Under the pieces are notes generated by a model. The model ran no database searches and had not been told where the DNA came from. It was given only the letters and a program-made list of their open reading frames with translations. Both the position numbers and the translations under genes were made by a program. A stretch of DNA of 64,000 nucleotides from Methanosarcinales archaeon Met12 (lineage in GTDB: Archaea > Halobacteriota > UBA148 > JAJOKI01). Shown piece after piece: positions 13,487-56,401 of the stretch (positions are counted from its first letter, which is position 1; every line of letters starts with the position of its first letter). The DNA lies in assembly GCA_002813105.2 (NCBI GenBank), contig CP017966.2:978745-1042744 (forward strand). Direction: 5' to 3'.

Positions 13487-15052
13487 TCCGAAATTAGTTA
13501 TCACATCCGGATGTATTTCGCCAAATACTCCAATGGTCTTTCCATTGACCCTCACTGATGCCCTTCTTCCTTCTAAAAATGCCAAGTCATCTGATTCGAC
13601 GATATCGTATTCAAGGCCGAGCTCCTTCGCTACCGATTCGAGTATGGATTTCATCTCGGCAAAATTCGCGGCAGCATGCGTGGATGCGCTGGCAAGTCGC
13701 TGTGCGTTCTTGGAATTGATGACCACATCTCCCACATTGAATATTCGCTGGGGGAGTTCTCGATGTTTGTTCAGCGACAGGATTTCCAGTAAATTTGGCA
13801 GAATGGACGACCTGACCATGGTATGGGCCTCACTGATCGGATGCTTGACTTTGGTGACCTTTTCTATTTTGCGCCGCATCATATCGAAATGCACCTGTTC
13901 GCTGGACAGGGTAAACGTCATGACCTCTAAAAATCCGAGCCCTGTCATTATTTCTCTGACAACTGCCATTTTGTTCTCGATGGGATGTGTCTTTCCAATT
14001 CCCGGCGTTTCTGGAAATGCCAGCTCGAATCGATCGTATCCATATCCAATTGCAACGTCTTCGATTATATCCCAGGTGTGCAGTATGTCTGCCCTGTAGG
14101 GTGGCACTGCAACTTTGATTTCCCCATCATTAATGGTGGCGCCAAATCTCATTTTTACGAGCTCATCAGATATTTGTTCCGCTGTCAGATTTAGTCCGAG
14201 GAGCGAGTTGACCTCGCTGACCTGAATCTTCCTGGTCGTCGGAGACATGTCAGGCATTGCAACTCCCTTACCGTCCGAAATAACCTCAACAGACTCGATT
14301 TTGCCACCTCTTTCCGCCAGCGCCGTGACCACGATGTTCAATGCCATGGAAATGGAATGGTCGGTGCCCGTCGCCTCGACAAACACATCGGCGGTGTCTT
14401 CGGTAACGCTCGTCAGCGAGGAGTTGATGATCGGCGGGAACGATAGCACATTATCTGCAGAGTCGATTATCAGCGGATAGCGGTCTGCCCCTGCCAGAAT
14501 ATGGGCGAATTTCGCTCCTTTCGGGTGAGTTTCAAGTATCTGGCGCATTGACATTTTCCGATTGCACTCAAGTGGGACGAATTTAAAATCGGGACCGACA
14601 GCGAGATATCTGAATGGCGGCTTCACATTCGAGATGTCGTGCACGCCGATGGACATCTTCTTTCGATTGCGCCCCAATCCCCAGTGTAAATCCTCCTGCA
14701 ATGTCATCAGGGATTTAATGCTGTTGGAGTTTAGGCGCAAGCCACGGACAACTGCACACGCAAGATGCGACCTTATCGGCTTGACCGATTTTTCTATCGT
14801 GACCGCGATGTCCGATTTTTCAACATCATATTCGGGCAGTCCTGTCTCGATTCCCAAAAAACCACGCATCGCCCTCGCCAAACCCTCGACGCTGAATAAG
14901 TCTGGTCTGTCTGGAAAGAACTCGATGTCGACATGCTCATCTTCAATGCGCTCGATGTCAGCGCCTATCATGGGTATTCTCTTGAGAATTGTATCCCTGT
15001 CTGCGCCGATTAGTTTTTCAAGGTCGTCGTATTGTAAGGTTATGATTGGCAT
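13445..15052 (-). CDS. pheT: Phenylalanyl-tRNA synthetase beta subunit
   Basis: 535 residues, the compact archaeal/eukaryal type of PheRS beta. It has the B3/B4 domain, which carries editing, in the middle, the B5 DNA-binding-like domain (starting around KIQVSEVNSLLGL) and the catalytic-core-like C-terminal domain. It forms the alpha2-beta2 enzyme with PheS. A good ribosome-binding site (AGGTGT) precedes the ATG at 15052. Its usual neighbour pheS lies about 3 kb upstream; two foreign-looking genes are inserted between them and the last one (DUF3800) overlaps this start by 13 bases. The 3' end overlaps the convergent rhomboid gene. Confidence 0.97.
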   Translation of the reverse strand: MPIITLQYDDLEKLIGADRDTILKRIPMIGADIERIEDEHVDIEFFPDRPDLFSVEGLARAMRGFLGIETGLPEYDVEKSDIAVTIEKSVKPIRSHLACAVVRGLRLNSNSIKSLMTLQEDLHWGLGRNRKKMSIGVHDISNVKPPFRYLAVGPDFKFVPLECNRKMSMRQILETHPKGAKFAHILAGADRYPLIIDSADNVLSFPPIINSSLTSVTEDTADVFVEATGTDHSISMALNIVVTALAERGGKIESVEVISDGKGVAMPDMSPTTRKIQVSEVNSLLGLNLTAEQISDELVKMRFGATINDGEIKVAVPPYRADILHTWDIIEDVAIGYGYDRFELAFPETPGIGKTHPIENKMAVVREIMTGLGFLEVMTFTLSSEQVHFDMMRRKIEKVTKVKHPISEAHTMVRSSILPNLLEILSLNKHRELPQRIFNVGDVVINSKNAQRLASASTHAAANFAEMKSILESVAKELGLEYDIVESDDLAFLEGRRASVRVNGKTIGVFGEIHPDVITNFGLDHPIVAFELELF

Positions 15053-15837
15053 GTTAACACCTTTTGAAGTCCAACGAAAGTCTTAAGTCTTACTAATTGT
15101 ATTGATGTTATTGGTGAGTAAGTCCTTTTCGAAAAGGATGAGGCCGCCCTGAGGCGGGTGGGACGAAGTAGGGAAGGGTTCACTACATAATTTTTGCTTT
15201 TCCCCTCAAAAAAGTCGAGTGCTATAGAGACTCTGGACTTAATTTTTTGGTAATAAACATCTTTTTTATCACGATATTTGCAATGTATCGCACCAGCAAC
15301 AAAGTCCGCTGCTTGAATACATGGATCCTGCTGGGAATCTGCATGAACAATTTTTGGCGGCTTTATATCTAACTCTCTAGTATGGTCACTCATCAGTGCC
15401 CTCCATGTTAAATACTGGTCAAAACTTTCCCTTTGAAGTCCATAAAGGGATTTGTCGACAAACACATTCACGGTTCCCTTAAGCCGATACTCGGTGACGA
15501 TTTTAGAAAGCAGCGACCCGCTCACATAATTATAAATAATGGGTTGTTTATCTCGAAGACTCTTATGCACTTGATGCTTGCGCAACACGGCATATACAAT
15601 GTCGGTATCTGTGTCTGCTATACGCTCAAGAAGGCGTCTTTTGATAGTGGGGCTGGAATTGTGAAATTTCAATTCTGGCGTCTTTTTGTATTTTTTGGGG
15701 AGTTTTTGCCTTCTGACTTTTGTGAAGCACTTCTTAATTTGGGGCGGGCTTCTAACGAGGAGCGCTGCTAATACGAAGTATTTTGATGCTCTGGAACCGA
15801 ATCCCAAATCACCCGATTCATCGAGATAAATTTTCAT
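15040..15837 (-). CDS. DUF3800 family protein, partner of the OLD nuclease
   Basis: 265 residues from ATG 15837, which has GGGTGA upstream. DUF3800 signature: IYLDESGDLGF at the N-terminus, IVHADSQQD near residue 185 and IQAADFVAGAI near 195. These acidic positions suggest a metal-dependent RNase H-like fold; the function is unknown. The C-terminal 40-45 residues are not family-like. They are encoded by two palindromes (15123-15157) and the pheT leader, as if the original stop was lost. It follows the OLD gene by about 30 bases on the same strand and is probably its functional partner. Confidence 0.82.
   Translation of the reverse strand: MKIYLDESGDLGFGSRASKYFVLAALLVRSPPQIKKCFTKVRRQKLPKKYKKTPELKFHNSSPTIKRRLLERIADTDTDIVYAVLRKHQVHKSLRDKQPIIYNYVSGSLLSKIVTEYRLKGTVNVFVDKSLYGLQRESFDQYLTWRALMSDHTRELDIKPPKIVHADSQQDPCIQAADFVAGAIHCKYRDKKDVYYQKIKSRVSIALDFFEGKSKNYVVNPSLLRPTRLRAASSFSKRTYSPITSIQLVRLKTFVGLQKVLTCQS
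15123..15157. repeat. Tandem palindromes inside the DUF3800 3' end
   Basis: TCCTTTTCGAAAAGGA (15123-15138) is a perfect 16-base palindrome. CCGCC-ctga-GGCGG (15144-15157) is a second inverted repeat 5 bases further. Both lie within the coding region of the DUF3800 tail and upstream of pheT. They could be a processing or attenuation signal between the inserted genes and pheT, or the edge of the inserted element. Confidence 0.6.
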
Positions 15838-15866
15838 TAGTTCACCCAACGCTTTCTTCTACGATT

Positions 15867-17903
15867 TTAAATCTTCAATTTATCGTTAACTATTTCAAAA
15901 AGCTTATCAAAGTTTTCTATTGTACTTGTTCCTAGAACGTCATCAGTACAAGATATATCGCTAGTCATATTGTACACTTGCTTTGCCACTAAGGTTTTGT
16001 CAAATCGACCCAACCTGTTTTTACTAAAGAATTTCTCGTACTTTTTCGTTTGCATGATAACTGAGGTATCAAGTTCATCCAATTTTATTTCCTCTTCTCC
16101 TCTTTTTTTTCTGAAGCAAACCTTATAGGCTTCATTAACAGCCTTGTTATAAAAAGAAGGATCAATGAGATCCTCAATTGTGATGTCTCTTCCCTGCATT
16201 TTATCGGGTGCTATTTCATCTAACTTGAAAACTAAACTTGCATCTATTGGATATTTTTCTTTTAACTCTCTTGCAACCTCTCTTCCCTCATTGTCATTAT
16301 CTAGTATTATAACAAACTTATAGCCTTTTCTCCACACAAAAAGCGTGAAATAGGGCACCTTTTGTGCTCCACCCACAGAAATAATTGCTACTTTAGAAAA
16401 GTCAAGGAATCCCTTTTTATTTCTTTGAAAGTAATGTGACACTCCTTCTAAAATAAGATAATCTGAATATCCCTCCACAATTGCATTTTTCTTTAAGCCA
16501 AAAAGAGAGTCGCCAATAGTGGCTCCAATAGCGGCCCTTATTGGCTCTAGTGCATCAAAATCTGAATCATGAAATTTTTCTTTGATGATTGTCCCCACTT
16601 TTCTCTCTTTCTTTTGAAAAATTCTAATTGTGTTAAGATGCTCTCTGTCAATTAAAAAGGGAGAGTGAGTTGTATATACGATTTGATTACTTTCTGCGAT
16701 TTGCTCTATAGTTTTTAAGAGGTCTTTTTGTCCCGAGGGGTGAATAAGCACCCCAGGGTTGTCAAGTAATATTACTGCATTTTTGAACTCGCCTTTAGTG
16801 CCTGCCATAAAGTTTATATAGAATGACAAAAACCATTGAAAACCATCGCTTCTCCGACTTGGTGGATCACGCGCTTCTGTTTTGTCCTCTATATAGACAA
16901 AAAGAGTGCCCCCATCGTATCCAATTTTGACATTTACAGTACCCTGTCGCCATAACTCATTTACCCTACCAGTTATTCTCGCTGAAGCTTCTTCTTTAGA
17001 AGAACGGCGTCGATGTGTGGGTTTTTCCGTTAATTTTTCTACATCTAACCCTGCCAAATTTATTAAATTGTCAAAAGTTTTGTATTGAGGTCTATTTTTT
17101 AGAAACTCATTTATTTCAATACTATCCTTTAGAAGATCTACGGCATCAAAATAAATTGAATTAGGAATTAGTTCTAAAATTTTTCCTATGATATCGTCTT
17201 CTTGGAGTTCGGTTATTAGTTCACCTTTAATTTGCTCAAGAATCTTGATAGTATTTTCAATATCTGTTTGAATAGTGGCATCTATGTTAGGTAATCCACG
17301 CAAGTTAGCGTATAAGGTGGTGAAAGCTTGTTCAACGTTTGATATGTTAGTAAAATCTGTCGAGAGGAAATTTTCTGCAAATTGGTCATATTGAGGCTTA
17401 CTAGAAGCGAAAGGAGGATATCTTTGTGTATGTTGTTGGAGTTTTGTTGACACATCATCAATTTGAAGTTTTATATTCTCAACTATTTCTTCTGTATTCT
17501 TAGGTTCCACCTCTAAATCTTCGATTCCACACTCCGGACTTTCAACTTCGTATTGATTGCTATAATATTTTGTAATCTTTAAATGCTTTATTTTGGCAAG
17601 TTCTTTGTTGATATCTTTTAACTTTTTTCTATCTTCATTTTCAATTTCAAACCAAGCTGTAATGATATCTATGTCTTCGGGCTCTATGTCTCCCCTTTCT
17701 AACTTTTCCTTCACTTCGGAATAAGAACAAATATCCTCCTCTATATATTCGTAATCCAAATTAAAAGATTCTAAAGCTTTTAAAAAATTAGTCTTGCCAC
17801 TTTCATTTTTGCCCATTAGGCAAGTCACTTTGCTATCGATTTTTATTTCACTGGGATCCTTAATAGACCTGAAGTTTCGTATCTGGACTTTCTCTATCTT
17901 CAT
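15867..17903 (-). CDS. OLD-family ATPase/TOPRIM nuclease
   Basis: 678 residues. An N-terminal SMC/RecF-like ATPase begins with MKIEKVQIRNFRSI and Walker A GKNESGKT (31-38). Coiled-coil-rich inserts follow, then a Walker B region near 381 that reads LLDNPG, then YTTHSPF. A TOPRIM domain has its glutamate in AIVEGYSDYLI near 472 and the D-x-D in ILDNDNEG near 534-540. OLD proteins are ATP-dependent nucleases; family members act in anti-phage defence (P2 Old, GajA of Gabija). No UvrD-like GajB is present; the adjacent same-strand gene is DUF3800. The stretch is visibly more AT-rich than the flanking pheS and pheT, indicating transfer. The defence role is an inference. Confidence 0.88.
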   Translation of the reverse strand: MKIEKVQIRNFRSIKDPSEIKIDSKVTCLMGKNESGKTNFLKALESFNLDYEYIEEDICSYSEVKEKLERGDIEPEDIDIITAWFEIENEDRKKLKDINKELAKIKHLKITKYYSNQYEVESPECGIEDLEVEPKNTEEIVENIKLQIDDVSTKLQQHTQRYPPFASSKPQYDQFAENFLSTDFTNISNVEQAFTTLYANLRGLPNIDATIQTDIENTIKILEQIKGELITELQEDDIIGKILELIPNSIYFDAVDLLKDSIEINEFLKNRPQYKTFDNLINLAGLDVEKLTEKPTHRRRSSKEEASARITGRVNELWRQGTVNVKIGYDGGTLFVYIEDKTEARDPPSRRSDGFQWFLSFYINFMAGTKGEFKNAVILLDNPGVLIHPSGQKDLLKTIEQIAESNQIVYTTHSPFLIDREHLNTIRIFQKKERKVGTIIKEKFHDSDFDALEPIRAAIGATIGDSLFGLKKNAIVEGYSDYLILEGVSHYFQRNKKGFLDFSKVAIISVGGAQKVPYFTLFVWRKGYKFVIILDNDNEGREVARELKEKYPIDASLVFKLDEIAPDKMQGRDITIEDLIDPSFYNKAVNEAYKVCFRKKRGEEEIKLDELDTSVIMQTKKYEKFFSKNRLGRFDKTLVAKQVYNMTSDISCTDDVLGTSTIENFDKLFEIVNDKLKI

Positions 17904-22194: not shown

Positions 22195-23253
22195 TCACAA
22201 TTTAGTTCTTCCAATATCGACATATTGTACTTTTTTATCGGTTGTATATGCAAATATCATTCGCTTTCTAACGCTCTGGGCGAGTCTGATGGCACGTGAC
22301 AACTCCTGTAATGCAAATATATGGTCACCTGGAATCGCGTGTACGAGATATTTAGAATGCGTCAGTTTTTCAATGGAATCAATCTGTTCATAGGTACGAA
22401 AGTGGCTGCCGAACTTAAAACCTGTCTTGACCACCTGTCCTTTATCCCGCAGCCCTTCATAGGTCCTGTATTTTCCGTCAAATATCGGCTCGATTCTCGT
22501 TGCTTTTTCTGCAAACTTCTTGAAACTTAGGACTTTACCTGATTTTCCATCGACGATCTTTATGACCTTCTTTTTTAGCAGATATGCAGACTCCACGAGC
22601 GACAATTGCAGCATTTTTTCATGCAACAATGTCCCAAAAAAGCTGCCATGATGGAGCGCATGTGCCAGCTCTGGATCCCAGATTATCACCCTGTCCCCCA
22701 GCAGCGCCGCCTCTTCTTTAATGCCGTTCGTCTTTACCTCCCTCATCTTTCCTTCCATGTCCGTCTTTTTAGCATCATAGAACGTTATATCCCCTTCCTC
22801 GTCCACGATGGCGAGTATGATTTGTTTTCGCACGTTTTTCGCAGTCTCCAGATGCCGCATTATATCTGTCAGGGGGAGTGGTTCTCTCTCGGATACCACG
22901 CGCACGAAATACTCTGCTGGCGTTTTGCCAGGATGCCCCCCTCTGGGGTACAGCCTGAAATCGGTTACACTTGGTTGTACATAATATCCCCTCTCCCGCA
23001 AATCTTTGTAGACGATGTATTTTAGTTCGAATTTTTCCATCAGGTTGGAAGCAGTCTTGACAAATTCTTTAAAATTTAGGGGTTTTTTATCCAGAGATAT
23101 CGAGATTCTCTCTCGCCCAAGTAGGTATGCCGCCTCGGTCAGGGTTAATTCTAGTTTGCCATCCCTGGGGCGCCCGTAATAGCTGGTACTGTATAACTCA
23201 GCGATGGCAGCCTCTTCCAATATGACCCTATCTCTAACTAATTTGCCGTTCAT
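22195..23253 (-). CDS. endA: tRNA-splicing endonuclease (two-repeat homodimer type)
   Basis: 352 residues from ATG 23253; the longer frame runs into tRNA-Arg and is rejected. The protein contains two tandem endonuclease units, the homodimeric arrangement known from Archaeoglobus. The second unit carries the catalytic residues: tyrosine in YEGLRDKGQVVKTG, histidine in KFGSHFRTY (near 282) and lysine in SVRKRM (near 328). The first unit is the degenerate structural half. It cuts bulge-helix-bulge motifs at tRNA exon-intron junctions. A fitting substrate, tRNA-Lys with a 295-nt intron, is in this window at 47.5 kb. tRNA-Arg ends 16 bases upstream. Confidence 0.95.
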   Translation of the reverse strand: MNGKLVRDRVILEEAAIAELYSTSYYGRPRDGKLELTLTEAAYLLGRERISISLDKKPLNFKEFVKTASNLMEKFELKYIVYKDLRERGYYVQPSVTDFRLYPRGGHPGKTPAEYFVRVVSEREPLPLTDIMRHLETAKNVRKQIILAIVDEEGDITFYDAKKTDMEGKMREVKTNGIKEEAALLGDRVIIWDPELAHALHHGSFFGTLLHEKMLQLSLVESAYLLKKKVIKIVDGKSGKVLSFKKFAEKATRIEPIFDGKYRTYEGLRDKGQVVKTGFKFGSHFRTYEQIDSIEKLTHSKYLVHAIPGDHIFALQELSRAIRLAQSVRKRMIFAYTTDKKVQYVDIGRTKL

Positions 23254-23269
23254 AACATTCCTCGATATA

Positions 23270-23341
23270 CGGATCTGCTGGGATTTGAACCCAGGTCGTC
23301 GGGTCCGAAGCCCGAAAGGATGTCCACTACCCCACAGACCC
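23270..23341 (-). tRNA. tRNA-Arg(TCG)
   Basis: 72 nt, no encoded CCA. Acceptor stem GGGTCTG pairs with CAGATCC (one G-T), discriminator G. The anticodon stem TCGGG/CCCGA encloses loop CTTCGGA, anticodon TCG (reads CGA). The T arm is TGGG-TTCAAAT-CCCA. No intron. It lies head-to-tail in front of the tRNA-splicing endonuclease gene, so both may share a transcript. Confidence 0.95.
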
Positions 23342-23417
23342 ATCACACTATATTATGCCATTCTATTATAGCTTATCGCAGAAAAGTATTAAATCCTGCT
23401 CAGGTATAGTGGATGGC

Positions 23418-30392: not shown

Positions 30393-30436
30393 GTTGAAAT
30401 TTCGTAGAAATTACAACTTGGAATTCCGAAGGAATT
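30393..30436 (+). promoter_or_regulatory. Two hairpins in the nadX leader covering the ribosome-binding site
   Basis: Hairpin 1: an 11-pair stem with one mismatch, 30393-30403 with 30407-30417, loop GTA. Hairpin 2: AATTCC-gaa-GGAATT (30422-30436), ending 2 bases before the nadX ATG at 30439. The only Shine-Dalgarno-like sequence, AAGGA (30429-30433), is in the loop and 3' arm of hairpin 2. The pair could control translation of nadX-nadA, or be an insertion of a hairpin repeat also seen in the tRNA-Lys intron. Confidence 0.5.
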
Positions 30437-30438
30437 GC

Positions 30439-31251
30439 ATGAAGATAGGGATAGTTGGTTGCGGCGCGATAGGCAAGACGATCTGCAGGGCTTTCGACCA
30501 GGGCATCATCAATGCCCATCTCACGGCGTTATCGGATAGAGACCCCGTATCAGCACAAGAACTTGCCGATTCTCTTGTAAATATACGGCCAAGGGTCATG
30601 GATACATCTGCGCTAATAGATGCGGTTGATCTGGTTGTGGAATGTGCTGCCCAGTCCGCAGTTCCAGATATAGTAATACCTGCGCTGGAAAAGGGCAGGG
30701 ATGTGATGATTATGAGCATTGGGGCACTTACGGATGAAAGACTATGGAGACGAATCAAGAGCCTTGCCAGCGAGCATGACTGCAGGGTGTACCTGCCCTC
30801 TGGTGCGATCGTTGGCTTGGACGGGCTGAAATCCGCCTCGATGGCAAAAATGTCATCCGTCATGCTCATCACCAGGAAGCATCCATCTGGCTTTCAAGGG
30901 GCGCCATATATCGAGCAGCACAAAATAGATTTGAATGCGCTGAAAAAGGCAACCATCATATTCGAGGGATGCGCTGAAGACGCTGTCAGAGCCTTTCCCG
31001 CCAACGTGAACGTAGCCGCTACGTTGAGCCTGGCAGGCATCGGGACTAAAAATACCAGAGTCAGGATTATCGCAGACCCAGCCCTGAGCAGAAACGTCCA
31101 TGAAATTTATGTGGAAGGAGAGTTCGGTAAATTCGAGACGCGAGTTGAAAATGTACCGTCTCCAGACAACCCAAGGACGAGTTATCTGGCAGCACTGTCC
31201 ACAATTGCCACCCTGAAAAAAATAGTTGATGAAATTCAGATTGGGACATAG
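30439..31251 (+). CDS. nadX: L-aspartate dehydrogenase
   Basis: 270 residues from ATG 30439; the longer frame to 30223 crosses the nadC start region and hairpins and is rejected. Rossmann motif KIGIVGCGAIGKTI at the N-terminus, ECAAQSAV near residue 71, YLPSGAIVGLDGL near 119 and the C-terminal NVNVAATLSLAGIG (catalytic asparagine/histidine region) near 190. Oxidises aspartate to iminoaspartate, replacing the flavoenzyme NadB. The stop is 2 bases before the nadA start. Confidence 0.93.
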   Translation: MKIGIVGCGAIGKTICRAFDQGIINAHLTALSDRDPVSAQELADSLVNIRPRVMDTSALIDAVDLVVECAAQSAVPDIVIPALEKGRDVMIMSIGALTDERLWRRIKSLASEHDCRVYLPSGAIVGLDGLKSASMAKMSSVMLITRKHPSGFQGAPYIEQHKIDLNALKKATIIFEGCAEDAVRAFPANVNVAATLSLAGIGTKNTRVRIIADPALSRNVHEIYVEGEFGKFETRVENVPSPDNPRTSYLAALSTIATLKKIVDEIQIGT

Positions 31252-45979: not shown

Positions 45980-46270
45980 ATGAAGGCTGAGATAACATCA
46001 CTACTTGGTTTGAAGGTCTACACAGATAGAGGCAAATACGTTGGGAAAGTCGGCGACACCGTACTCGACGCAAATGAGAAAAAGATAACGGGTCTGGCGA
46101 TCTCCGACCTGAATCCCGACACCTTCGATATACAAAGTCGAGGTGTCATCATCCCATATCGCTGGGTGATGTCGGTAGGAGATGTCGTGGTGATAAAACA
46201 AACCGCCGATAGGTTTAGGCAAAAGGTCGTAGAAGAGCCCGAAGAATCCCTGAGTGATGAAGGAACGTGA
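45980..46270 (+). CDS. PRC-barrel domain protein (CdpB-like)
   Basis: 96 residues, a single PRC-barrel: EITSLLGLKVYTDRGKYVGKV, then VLDANEKKITGLAISDL, then G-V-I-I-P-Y-R-W-V. In haloarchaea, PRC-barrel proteins CdpB1/CdpB2 work with SepF and FtsZ in cell division; that role is possible here but not shown by context. Overlaps the thg1 start by 14 bases. Confidence 0.88.
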   Translation: MKAEITSLLGLKVYTDRGKYVGKVGDTVLDANEKKITGLAISDLNPDTFDIQSRGVIIPYRWVMSVGDVVVIKQTADRFRQKVVEEPEESLSDEGT

Positions 46271-46988
46271 AGTTTATTCGGATATCAAGGCAATACCTCC
46301 TATAGTAATCAGAATCGACGGCAGAAATTTTAAAAGGACGCTGGAGCGATTGAGTTCCCAGAAGCCGTATGACAAGACGTTTGCGGGGGCTATGGCGGAT
46401 TCGACCGAGAGTCTTATGAAAGAGAGCGGACTAAGTCCACAGTTCGCGTACACGTTCTCGGATGAGGTCAATGTATTCTTCTTGAAACTCCCATTTCATG
46501 GCCGAATTGAGAAATTGGACTCCATCGTCCCGAGTTTTTTATCAAGTGCATTGACGTTGGCACTGGATAGTAAAATGCCATTGTCTTTCGATGCGCGCGT
46601 CGTCCCCCTCTCCAGAGAGGATATATGTGGGTACTTAGAATGGCGCCAAGCAGAGGCATGGAAAAACCACGTACACTCGTATGGATATCATGCTCTGCGA
46701 GAAGATGGTTTATCTAAACGAACTGCAGCGTCGAGGATGATGGGCATGAACGCAAAAGAGGTTCATGATATGTTGTTTGAAAAAGGAATCAATCTGACCA
46801 AGACCCCACTGTGGCAGAGGCGTGGCATACTAATTTTAAAGAAGAAGTATAAAAAGTCCGGATATGACCCAAAAAACAGGGCAAAGGTGGTGACCGACAG
46901 GAGCAAGGTCATTCAGGACTGGGAATTGCCACTCTTCAACTCAAAGGAAGGACAAATGCTAATCAGTAAGCTACTGGCAGAAGAATGA
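46257..46988 (+). CDS. thg1: tRNA-His guanylyltransferase-family 3'-5' polymerase
   Basis: 243 residues from ATG 46257 (GTG 46254 alternative). Palm-like catalytic domain with metal-binding VIRIDGRNFKR (near residues 16-26) and TFSDEVNVFF (near 65-74), and HSYGYHALREDGLSKRTA later. Adds G-1 to tRNA-His or repairs tRNA 5' ends by 3'-5' synthesis. Another tRNA-maturation gene in a window that also holds the splicing endonuclease. Confidence 0.94.
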   Translation: MKEREVYSDIKAIPPIVIRIDGRNFKRTLERLSSQKPYDKTFAGAMADSTESLMKESGLSPQFAYTFSDEVNVFFLKLPFHGRIEKLDSIVPSFLSSALTLALDSKMPLSFDARVVPLSREDICGYLEWRQAEAWKNHVHSYGYHALREDGLSKRTAASRMMGMNAKEVHDMLFEKGINLTKTPLWQRRGILILKKKYKKSGYDPKNRAKVVTDRSKVIQDWELPLFNSKEGQMLISKLLAEE

Positions 46989-47473: not shown

Positions 47474-47842
47474 CGGGCCGGAAGGGATTTGAACCCTTGA
47501 CCTATGGGTGACTCTCCAACTTAATTCCTTTGGAATTTCAACATGCATCAGATGAGACATGTCGCAGTTCGGAGAACTGCGAGAGTTGTATTTCCTTCGG
47601 AAATTCGGAAATTCAACACCCCGACTAAATCAACAGATTTAGCGGACTCGCAGATGTTTCATCTGCGACCCCTCTGGTGGAGTTGTAATCCAGGTGGGAC
47701 TTCAGCAGTGCTCGATAGATTCATAATGCGAGCGCATGCAACGCTTTGGTTCAAACGTTCTAATAGAACGTTTTGGTTCAAGCGTTCTAATAGAACGCTT
47801 TGGTTAAGAGCCCATCGCTCCACCTAACTAAGCTACCGGCCC
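47474..47842 (-). tRNA. tRNA-Lys(CTT) with a 295-nt intron
   Basis: Exon 1 47842-47805, intron 47804-47510, exon 2 47509-47474; mature length 74 nt, no encoded CCA. Acceptor GGGCCGG/CCGGCCC, discriminator G. The anticodon stem ATGGG/CCCAT encloses CTCTTAA (anticodon CTT). T arm AAGGG-TTCAAAT-CCCTT. The junction folds as a canonical bulge-helix-bulge: 4-bp helix CTCT/AGAG, flanking bulges TAA and TCA (cuts TA^A and TC^A), outer helix CCAA/TTGG. The intron sits at the standard 37/38 position but is unusually long and full of hairpins and a 27-nt tandem repeat. The endonuclease that would remove it is encoded at 22.2-23.3 kb. Confidence 0.95.
47510..47804. repeat. Hairpins and 27-nt tandem repeat within the tRNA-Lys intron
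   Basis: Perfect stems in order: AATTCC-ttt-GGAATT (47523-47537), CGCAGTTC-gga-GAACTGCG (47563-47581), ATTTCC-ttc-GGAAAT (47590-47604), CGCAGATG-ttt-CATCTGCG (47649-47667), AACGTTC-taata-GAACGTT (47754-47772) and AGCGTTC-taata-GAACGCT (47781-47799). The word ACG(C/T)TTTGGTT recurs at 47741, 47768 and 47795, a 27-nt period. All loops are 3 or 5 bases. Several stems resemble those in front of nadX. Confidence 0.85.
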
Positions 47843-54405: not shown

Positions 54406-54825
54406 ATGACTGTGATAACAAAAACTGTCCACCTGCAGAGTAAAGGCAATGTCGACATCATCGACATCACTGACAAAGTTGCTGAATTGCTGAAAGAGTC
54501 TAATCTGAAGGATGGCATCGTTACAGTCTTCGTGCCTGGGTCCACCGGTGCCATAACAACGATAGAATATGAGCCCGGTCTTGTCGAAGATTTGGCCAAT
54601 GCACTGGAACGAATGGCACCACAGGAGATGGAATACAAGCACAATCTCAAATGGGGCGATGGCAATGGCCACTCCCATGTGCTCGCCTCGCTGTTGGGCC
54701 CAAGTGAGACGATACCCTTCTCGAATGCGAAATTGATGCTGGGCACATGGCAGCAGGTCGTATTCATCGATTTGGATAATCAGCCGCGATCACGCAGGCT
54801 GATACTTCAAATTATTGGAGTTTGA
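54406..54825 (+). CDS. YjbQ/UPF0047 family protein (secondary thiamine-phosphate synthase-like)
   Basis: 139 residues. Signature: D-G-I-V-T-V-F-V-P-G-S-T-G-A near residue 39, GDGNGHSHVLASLLG (near 85-99, metal-binding histidines) and GTWQQVVFIDLDNQPR near 113-128. Members have weak thiamine-phosphate synthase activity; the true role is uncertain. Ends 14 bases inside the convergent elp3 end. Confidence 0.9.
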   Translation: MTVITKTVHLQSKGNVDIIDITDKVAELLKESNLKDGIVTVFVPGSTGAITTIEYEPGLVEDLANALERMAPQEMEYKHNLKWGDGNGHSHVLASLLGPSETIPFSNAKLMLGTWQQVVFIDLDNQPRSRRLILQIIGV

Positions 54826-56401
54826 CCATATATGGGCCATCCCGTTCGTAACCAAGTTTTTTATAGTACTCTCGCACACCTATACCGCTGATGATAGCAA
54901 TCCTGCTAAATCCTGCGTCAAGTGCAAGCTCTTCAGCACATTTTAAAAGCTCTTCTCCATATCCCCTATGCTGCCATTCGCTTGCGGCTTTTTGTCCCAA
55001 TGGAACCATCGGACCATAAACGTGCAGCTCGCGAACCAGGGCGGCATCTTTTAATTCTGGTCTGTATGGATTATGCGGAAACCTGAGCCGCAGAAATCCA
55101 ATTAGAATATCGCTTTCTTCAAATGATATAAAATGTTCAAGACCATTGCACGCGTTGTATTCTTCTATCTTCAGTTCAATATGCTCTGGGTGAGGGACAA
55201 TGCCCTTCAGCAGTGCATGTCCCACTTCTCGACATCTGATACACTGGCATCTTTTATTCAATTCGTTAAGTCTGTTTTCAACAAGTTGTTGGATATTGCT
55301 CTTGGTCACGCCTGCCATAATCAAGTGTGCGGGAATCTCTCGCTGAATTCGCTGCAATCTGGTCCATTTGGAAAGCAGCATCTTTATTTGGCATATCAAT
55401 TTGATGGCATCTTCGTTCGTCAGCGGGTCGTATTCTCCGCTTTGCCACATTTCATACAACTGCGTCCCCTCTATCACCAGCGTTGGATATATCTTCAGAT
55501 AATCAGGGCAGAATTTTGGGTCGGTGAATATGCGCCTGAACATATTGAGGTCCATGTCAAAATCTGAACCAGGCAACCCAGGCATCATGTGAAATCCGAC
55601 CTTGAATCCGCTGTCTCTGAGGACGGCGTTGGCCTCGATAACGTCCTTAACGGTGTGCCCCCTCTGCATTCGCTTCAACACGAAATCATACGTGCTCTGA
55701 ACCCCCAGTTCGACCTTGGTTCCACCCATCTTCAACATCTGGTCGACATGCTCTTTTCGTGCCCAATCCGGACGCGTCTCAAACGTAATTCCTACGTTTC
55801 TGACCTTTGCCGTTTCATTAATCGCCTGTGCACTTTCAAGCGACAAAGTTGCGCACCCCGCAGAGCCAAAACAGTTCATCGCATCTATACAGCGTCGGAC
55901 GAACCATTCCTGGTAGCACAGGGAACGGGATGTAACTGTGCCACCCATGACGATCAATTCTGCTTTGTCGACGGAGTGCCCCATCTGTTTCAGTTGTTTA
56001 AGCCGCTCCGTCACCTGGCGGTAGGGGTCAAAATCCTGCTGAACCGCGCGCAATGCTGCAGGCTCATAGCCAGTATAACTTTGCGGCGATTGGAAATGGG
56101 ATTGGGGGCCTCCAGGACATGGAACACATAAACCATGTGGACATTTGTGAGGAGACGTCATCACCGCTATTACCGCGACTCCAGAAATAGTTCGAACGGG
56201 TTTTATCTGGACCAATCTCTTGATGATGTCCCGTTCACTCCCAGTGGCGGTGGAAAGTATAGCGGAATTCTTTGGAAAGCCGGATAGTCCGTACTGCATG
56301 CTAATCGATTTCTTGGCGGCATTTAATTCGTCGTGGGTGCGGACTTCTCCTTTTAATATCATCTCCACTACTTCTCGACATGCTGACTTGGAGTTGGACA
56401 C
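54812..56401 (-). CDS. elp3: Elp3 tRNA-modification radical-SAM acetyltransferase
   Basis: 529 residues. Radical-SAM domain with cluster cysteines CPHGLCVPCPGG (near residues 85-96), then VKLQ-like KVELGVQSTYD (near 231), and a C-terminal GNAT domain (QHRGYGEELLKCAEELALDAGF, near 478-499). Makes the carboxymethyl modification of U34 in tRNA. A normal-length archaeal Elp3, which works alone without other Elongator subunits. Confidence 0.96.
   Translation of the reverse strand: MSNSKSACREVVEMILKGEVRTHDELNAAKKSISMQYGLSGFPKNSAILSTATGSERDIIKRLVQIKPVRTISGVAVIAVMTSPHKCPHGLCVPCPGGPQSHFQSPQSYTGYEPAALRAVQQDFDPYRQVTERLKQLKQMGHSVDKAELIVMGGTVTSRSLCYQEWFVRRCIDAMNCFGSAGCATLSLESAQAINETAKVRNVGITFETRPDWARKEHVDQMLKMGGTKVELGVQSTYDFVLKRMQRGHTVKDVIEANAVLRDSGFKVGFHMMPGLPGSDFDMDLNMFRRIFTDPKFCPDYLKIYPTLVIEGTQLYEMWQSGEYDPLTNEDAIKLICQIKMLLSKWTRLQRIQREIPAHLIMAGVTKSNIQQLVENRLNELNKRCQCIRCREVGHALLKGIVPHPEHIELKIEEYNACNGLEHFISFEESDILIGFLRLRFPHNPYRPELKDAALVRELHVYGPMVPLGQKAASEWQHRGYGEELLKCAEELALDAGFSRIAIISGIGVREYYKKLGYERDGPYMVKLQ

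Follow-up and report, generated by a model that had tools for sequence, protein, structure and literature searches.

The tRNA-Lys(CTT) locus and its splice site

The archaeon Met12 has a genome that is tiny for an archaeon, a single contig of 1,067,436 bases, and a 64,000-nucleotide stretch of it (CP017966.2, positions 978,745 to 1,042,744; referred to here as the window) contains a tRNA-Lys(CTT) gene with a long intron that is composed largely of hairpin elements. Met12 is a non-methanogenic member of the Methanocellales that lives in serpentinised springs, and its genome has been circularised (PMC11176372); the main text of that paper makes no mention of tRNAs, introns or repeats. The gene is complete on the minus strand, running from 47842 to 47474. 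The 5' exon (nucleotides 1-37) occupies 47805-47842, the 295-nt intron lies at 47510-47804 in the canonical 37/38 position as placed by ARAGORN and by comparison with relatives, and the 3' exon follows at 47474-47509. With introns allowed, ARAGORN reports tRNA-Lys(ctt) at c[47473,47842], and it also accepts the 74-nt tRNA formed by the joined exons. At default settings neither ARAGORN nor Rfam called the tRNA-Lys(CTT) at 47842-47474, because the intron is too long for these searches.

The exon borders are set in a splice-competent, textbook bulge-helix-bulge (BHB) motif, identified by reading and by constrained folding. Its 5' strand is CTCT-TAA-CCAA (47800-47810, minus strand) and its 3' strand TTGG-AGAG-TCA together with the start of the 3' side of the anticodon stem (47504-47519, minus strand), giving a 4-bp central helix (CTCT/AGAG), two 3-nt bulges (TAA and TCA) and an outer helix (CCAA/TTGG). 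An original prediction from the DNA letters had described a complete tRNA-Lys split at 37/38 with a textbook BHB, and ARAGORN, the spliced form and the reading of the helices all confirm it. When the cloverleaf and the BHB are enforced, the pre-tRNA is predicted to fold at -138.3 kcal/mol versus -143.2 kcal/mol without constraints; as the enforced fold lies only 4.9 kcal/mol above the minimum, the model indicates that the BHB is compatible with the intron hairpins in one structure. The free pre-tRNA folds 7.5 standard deviations below dinucleotide shuffles (z = -7.5).

A tRNA splicing endonuclease (EndA) gene is present in the same window at 22222-23031 on the minus strand (G000:C1:1000966-1001775, G000 being Met12), where a domain search recognises two tRNA_int_endo domains in one 385-aa frame. 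Judged from its sequence, this is the enzyme expected to remove the Lys intron. The EndA gene directly adjoins an intronless tRNA-Arg(TCG) gene (23269-23342, minus strand). Close to the tRNA-Lys gene itself lies a gene for a Thg1-like tRNA-His guanylyltransferase (46254-46988, plus strand), its identity being assigned by reading of the sequence.

Internal composition of the intron

The intron is assembled from a local tandem repeat and from members of two double-hairpin families, here called E1 and E2, all described on the minus strand. In order, it comprises the 27-nt units, a first E1 copy (E1a) that holds E2 and another E1 copy (E1b) within the loop of its second hairpin, and finally, directly against the splice helix, half of an E1 (E1c). 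The 27-nt hairpin units (47740-47805; repeat finding and self-BLAST) have the form CCAAA-GCGTTCTATTAGAACGC-TTGAA and make up a tandem repeat of period 27, 2.4 copies and 92% match. Their architecture is that of the CCAAACTTTTTAATAAAAAGTTTGA hairpin, which opens other Met12 tRNA introns and is also found in the Lys intron of the relative L041. E1a was delimited by reading and by a covariance model: its first hairpin, GCTGAAGTCCCACCTGGATTACAAC, spans 47682-47706, and its second, which is intact elsewhere, is split by the nested inserts into a 5' arm, TCCACCAGA (47673-47681), and a 3' arm, TCTGATGCA (47544-47552). Between these arms lie the E2 element (47621-47670) and E1b (47560-47618), whose two hairpins are both present, the first with a short duplication inside it. 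E1c (47517-47543) retains the first hairpin only.

The nested E1 and E2 members account for ~190 nt of the intron, and by self-BLAST the stretch at intron positions 98-283 recurs at more than 20 further sites of the genome. This bears out the earlier suggestion that the intron has been invaded by, or has become a home for, a palindromic repeat family. The six perfect stems of that prediction are correct as to the hairpins and not as to their number, since seven strong ones were found. Its 27-base repeat is a genuine tandem repeat, and the proposed search of the genome and of relatives recovered the same intron in seven relatives; as a repeat family the 27-nt unit does not hold, being local and not dispersed.

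Structure and distribution of E1 and E2

E1 consists of two adjacent 25-nt hairpins, TGTTGAAnnnCCnnnGGnnnTACAAC followed by TCnCGCAGnnCnnnGnnCTGCGnCA. Because T precedes 34 of 35 copies and the right neighbour varies, we write the element as 51 bp, TGTTGAA...GACA. An alignment of 33 copies (the first set held 13) has 97.9% of its stem cells paired, and the changes within stems are two-sided in 92 cases versus one-sided in 7. Among the two-sided changes are numerous A-U/U-A and G-C/C-G flips, for which a G-U intermediate offers no path; that the arms change together suggests that, when an element is copied, one arm serves as template for the other. E2, the second double-hairpin type, is likewise exactly 51 bp long; the tRNA-Gly intron contains it, whereas the homologous part of the tRNA-Arg(TCT) intron lacks it.

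The E1 covariance model (R1) returned 52 rows for Met12, which merge to approximately 36 distinct copies when both-strand and partial rows are combined. They are dispersed through intergenic DNA, three tRNA introns (Lys, Tyr and Ala) and, in frame, the interior of conserved protein genes, while E2 occurs in four tRNA introns, those of Lys, Gln(TTG), Gly and the gene at L009. A further E1-type copy in the window, MKIGIVGCGAIG..., was located by the covariance model on the plus strand at 30393-30439, shortly before the start codon of a dehydrogenase-like gene. Elsewhere the model gave 21 rows in a congener of Met12 (G001), 9, 3, 8 and 4 in genomes of family f3, 11 in G008 and none in four more genomes from the order (G002, G004, G006 and G010); ten outgroups together yielded a single marginal match. 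The E1 family is restricted to this order, where its distribution is patchy. The exact E1 pattern is absent from 2.9 million viral contigs, and no viral carrier was found there. At three sites, in the TiaS gene, in carB and at G000:C1:855897-855997, an E1 sits precisely between the first and the second hairpin of another E1, a hint that the target may be structural.

Insertions in protein-coding genes

E1 copies of Met12 lie within the Pfam-recognised frames of TiaS, thymidylate kinase, IMPDH, asparagine synthase (AsnB), Endo_dU and LeuRS, as well as frames for a PilB-like ATPase, ThiS and DNA polymerase B (PolB); in relatives they are found in carB, CbiA-type ATPases, TRM and Elp3. They enter genes in several reading frames and on both strands, about four of the six frames being free of stops in most copies. 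When Met12 TiaS is aligned with the solved Archaeoglobus enzyme, the break in the alignment coincides precisely with the element (query 331 to 365); the alignment of IMPDH has a break of the same kind (136 to 163). The 34-residue TiaS segment contains NFRRKYNCRNLKEITTPPDVPSDAS.

Exact empty sites accompany several of these insertions. TiaS of Met12 is 102 bp (2x51) longer than that of the congener, which has an exact empty site, and carB presents the reverse case, with an insert in the congener (~32 codons; 102 bp by hand count) and an empty site in Met12 and three other relatives. This reciprocal presence within one genus places insertion after the two species parted. Elp3 of G009 carries 51 bp more than its counterparts in G003, G005 and G007 and 17 more residues than the Elp3-like gene of the window (54812-56401, minus strand), which lacks E1 and represents the empty site for the 17-aa (51-bp) insert of the G009 ortholog. 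A 3-bp target duplication to which Elp3 pointed (AAT/CAT) found no support elsewhere, and L162 in G007 was dropped as a DNA-level empty site, its flanks diverging on one side. The elements seem able to decay or recombine while the frame stays intact. The IMPDH insert (L007:4180-4260) is made of the first hairpin of an E1, the second hairpin of an E2 and a truncated E1, all in frame.

Long tRNA introns in Met12 and its relatives

By the purA gene that adjoins tRNA-Lys, the nearest named relatives include Met33H, Yes46-10, CSMAG_2511 and UBA148, among others. In the seven nearest relatives a tRNA-Lys(CTT) gene lies upstream of purA and has an intron at the same site, of 27, 27, 49, 106, 106, 151 and 235 nt, and the interiors of these introns share little. 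By these comparisons the Lys intron is ancestral and its length in Met12 new. The 49-nt intron (L041) is little more than a single CAAACTTTT...AAGTTTG-type hairpin. Hairpins of this type also open many of the other tRNA introns in Met12, and their layout is that of the 27-nt Lys unit. The 235-nt intron (L047) contains different hairpins, so enlargement has occurred more than once within the order. This last intron belongs to Methanocellales archaeon Yes46-07 (L047:9174-9482), and its CCATTTCCGAAGGAAATGCGAG-type hairpins suggest a second, independent hairpin family in the genus of that organism.

The Lys intron has company within Met12. The published range for archaeal tRNA introns is 11-129 nt (review PMC4090602), and against it the prediction that 295 nt is far beyond the usual holds; within Met12 it does not, as about twelve tRNA introns reach at least 100 nt, the longest being 366 nt. 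As listed by ARAGORN these are Gly(TCC) 366, a called Tyr (L009) 310, Arg(TCT) 303, Lys 295, Met 290, Gln(CTG) 227, Ile 197, Gln(TTG) ~178, Tyr 141, Ala(TGC) 130, Met 128 and Thr 120 nt. The border listed for Gln(TTG) was not confirmed when its spliced form was re-checked, and the ARAGORN anticodons of the long-intron genes L009 ('Tyr') and L022 ('Stop') look mis-spliced, so that their borders were left open. At least nine of the Met12 tRNA introns share sequence among themselves. The tRNA genes of the complete relative G005 span at most 132 bases, a figure from the Rfam model, which genes with very long introns would escape. Outside called tRNA genes, too, there are repeats of the kind seen in tRNA introns (GATCAACCTG...CAGGTTGG and relatives), at L031:717-914, L026:1047-1213 and L029:3108-3317. 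These places are a tRNA-Val/tRNA-Ser spacer, a site just downstream of tRNA-Thr and one without a called tRNA, which is perhaps a missed gene.

Origin of the enlarged intron and spread of the elements

We consider the Lys intron to be an ordinary BHB intron that has swollen about tenfold by tandem duplication of a 27-nt unit and by repeated, nested insertion of 51-bp elements, and assign this explanation a probability of roughly 0.86. EndA would need the BHB alone, so that the sequence beyond it would be free to grow. Growth most probably followed two routes, one in which an intron-resident 27-nt hairpin was duplicated in tandem and another in which mobile E1 and E2 double hairpins were inserted repeatedly, one within another. 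In tRNA introns E1 and E2 would fold on themselves with little competition for the splice helix, and in protein genes they would add exactly 17 codons with stop-free frames; their tolerance at both kinds of site could then be due to self-folding and frame preservation, which would leave them neutral where they land. We infer that the elements are neutral and selfish, and that they presumably move as hairpins whose new copies are re-synthesised from one arm. Several points weigh against this account. The BHB is absent from the unconstrained minimum-energy fold, which is better than the BHB fold by the margin given above, and splicing of the intron is itself deduced from its sequence. The transposase search, which covered the Y1 family, identified no mobilising enzyme. 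The gene contexts of E1 copies come from open frames as opposed to curated annotation, and the copy counts are approximate in that 150 candidates were scored per genome.

Two other explanations of the intron itself were weighed. According to one, which the original prediction had raised, the intron is kept for a structured RNA that splicing releases, such as a guide or sponge RNA, perhaps circular. Its very stable fold (z = -7.5) would fit, as would the C/D guide RNA carried by archaeal tRNA-Trp introns (PMC4090602), but the fold owes its stability to elements that are also present at unrelated places. Rfam found nothing over the locus at the gathering threshold or at E<=10, a search of the intron for C/D guide boxes found no RTGATGA C box, and neither sequence nor length is conserved among the seven orthologous introns, so that this function is highly improbable. 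An assembly artefact or chimera is less credible still. Met12 is a metagenome-assembled genome (MAG), and repeats can mislead assembly; its circular genome was, however, refined with mate pairs, and near-identical MAGs were obtained from five metagenomes sampled at three springs in two years (PMC11176372). Related genomes that came from other studies also contain this family, and in them Lys introns have been enlarged independently. The observation proposed as a sign of a one-off artefact, a short intron in a relative together with hairpins found nowhere else, is realised only in its first half, as short introns do occur and the hairpins are spread genome-wide.

For the spread of the elements, two possibilities are in our judgment equally open, and each is tentative. 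E1 and E2 may be elements resembling REPs or miniature inverted-repeat transposable elements (MITEs) that a protein transposase (Y1/RAYT or DDE), since lost from Met12 or not recognised in it, mobilised in trans. The fixed 51-bp unit, bounded by TG...CA and preceded by T, the patchiness across related genomes and the Y1 transposases of two copy-bearing genomes (G007 and G008) accord with such an enzyme. Against it, Y1_Tnp was found neither in Met12 and G001, which are richest in copies, nor in G003, G005 and G009; the Y1 match in G002, a genome free of elements, is partial and contains a stop. The ends of E1 form only a ~5-bp imperfect inverted repeat (TGTTG/CGACA) and there is no fixed target duplication, which sets it apart from MITEs. 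The elements could alternatively spread, and their palindromes be maintained, by errors of replication and repair (hairpin template switching and arm-to-arm copying) in which no dedicated enzyme takes part. The 92 two-sided versus 7 one-sided changes, with their many flips beyond a G-U step, and the three copies nested exactly at a hairpin junction agree with this possibility, and for the perfect coding palindromes of nematomorph mitochondria template switching has likewise been put forward (PMC6649704). Random template switching alone, however, would hardly yield copies that at unrelated sites all share the 51-bp length and the same ends.

Other features of the window

An Rfam DUF3800-X RNA (78 bits) lies at 15112-15185 on the plus strand, antisense over the end of a DUF3800-like gene (open reading frame 15040-15849, minus strand). 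Beside this gene, at 15867-17903 on the minus strand, is a 678-aa ATPase/TOPRIM-type open reading frame that reads as OLD-nuclease-like. The low-GC patch (34.5%) with these DUF3800-like and OLD-like frames is possibly a defence or mobile island.

Relation to known systems and implications

The Lys intron agrees with the archaeal BHB introns already described in its 37/38 position, 4-bp central helix, two 3-nt bulges and accompanying EndA gene, and differs in being 295 nt long, with others of this genome reaching 366 nt, compared with 11-129 nt, and in consisting mostly of repeat elements (PMC4090602). Transposition of tRNA introns has been reported for the Thermoproteales (Fujishima et al. 2010, as cited in PMC4090602). 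As far as that citation describes it, the likeness is that introns of different Met12 tRNAs share long stretches of sequence; the differences are that Met12 belongs to another phylum, that its shared cores are invaded by E2 and E1, and that E2 is all that the Lys intron has in common with the others.

Among mobile palindromes, the Rickettsia palindromic elements (RPEs) are also short, multicopy and inserted in frame in conserved genes, and E1 too has empty sites in relatives; RPEs are ~150 bp long and bacterial, whereas E1 is a 51-bp archaeal double hairpin found in tRNA introns as well (PMC10969869). The mitochondrial double-hairpin or repetitive hairpin elements consist of one or two hairpins and are mostly intergenic, sometimes in RNA genes and occasionally in protein genes; they are organellar, whereas E1 resides in a cellular archaeal chromosome with a fixed, frame-neutral length of 51 bp (PMC2800124). 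In form E1 resembles them, two short adjacent hairpins being its mobile unit. By analogy E1 and E2 probably work like RPEs and mitochondrial hairpin elements and yet would be a separate archaeal family of its own size, the distinction of E1 from RPEs being drawn from unit size and description. Repetitive extragenic palindromes (REPs) are tied to Y1 RAYT enzymes. They are palindromes of 20-40 bp with many copies and are extragenic, whereas E1 copies lie inside genes and Met12 has no Y1 enzyme (PMC3733652). By the tests done, E1 and E2 are not a REP/RAYT system.

In-frame palindromic insertions are rare and known mainly from Rickettsia and some mitochondria, and a literature search that left aside preprints, most subscription papers and supplements found no published account of them in archaea. 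With ~36 copies, exact empty sites and polymorphism between congeners in a cellular archaeon, the rules of insertion, the tolerance of proteins and the growth of introns become directly studiable. There is also a warning for annotation, as default tRNA searches miss such genes and TiaS, IMPDH and LeuRS hold element-derived segments. E1 and E2 join two questions, how archaeal tRNA introns lengthen and how DNA hairpins move when no transposase is visible. It is doubtful, though conceivable, that they form a distinct class of archaeal mobile element, defined by precise insertion of a self-contained 51-bp double hairpin, a preference for hairpin junctions, their own among them, re-synthesis from one arm at every move with no dedicated transposase, and tolerance in reading frames and introns. 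If they do, the same elements would account for giant tRNA introns as well as for newly gained protein segments of 17 residues.
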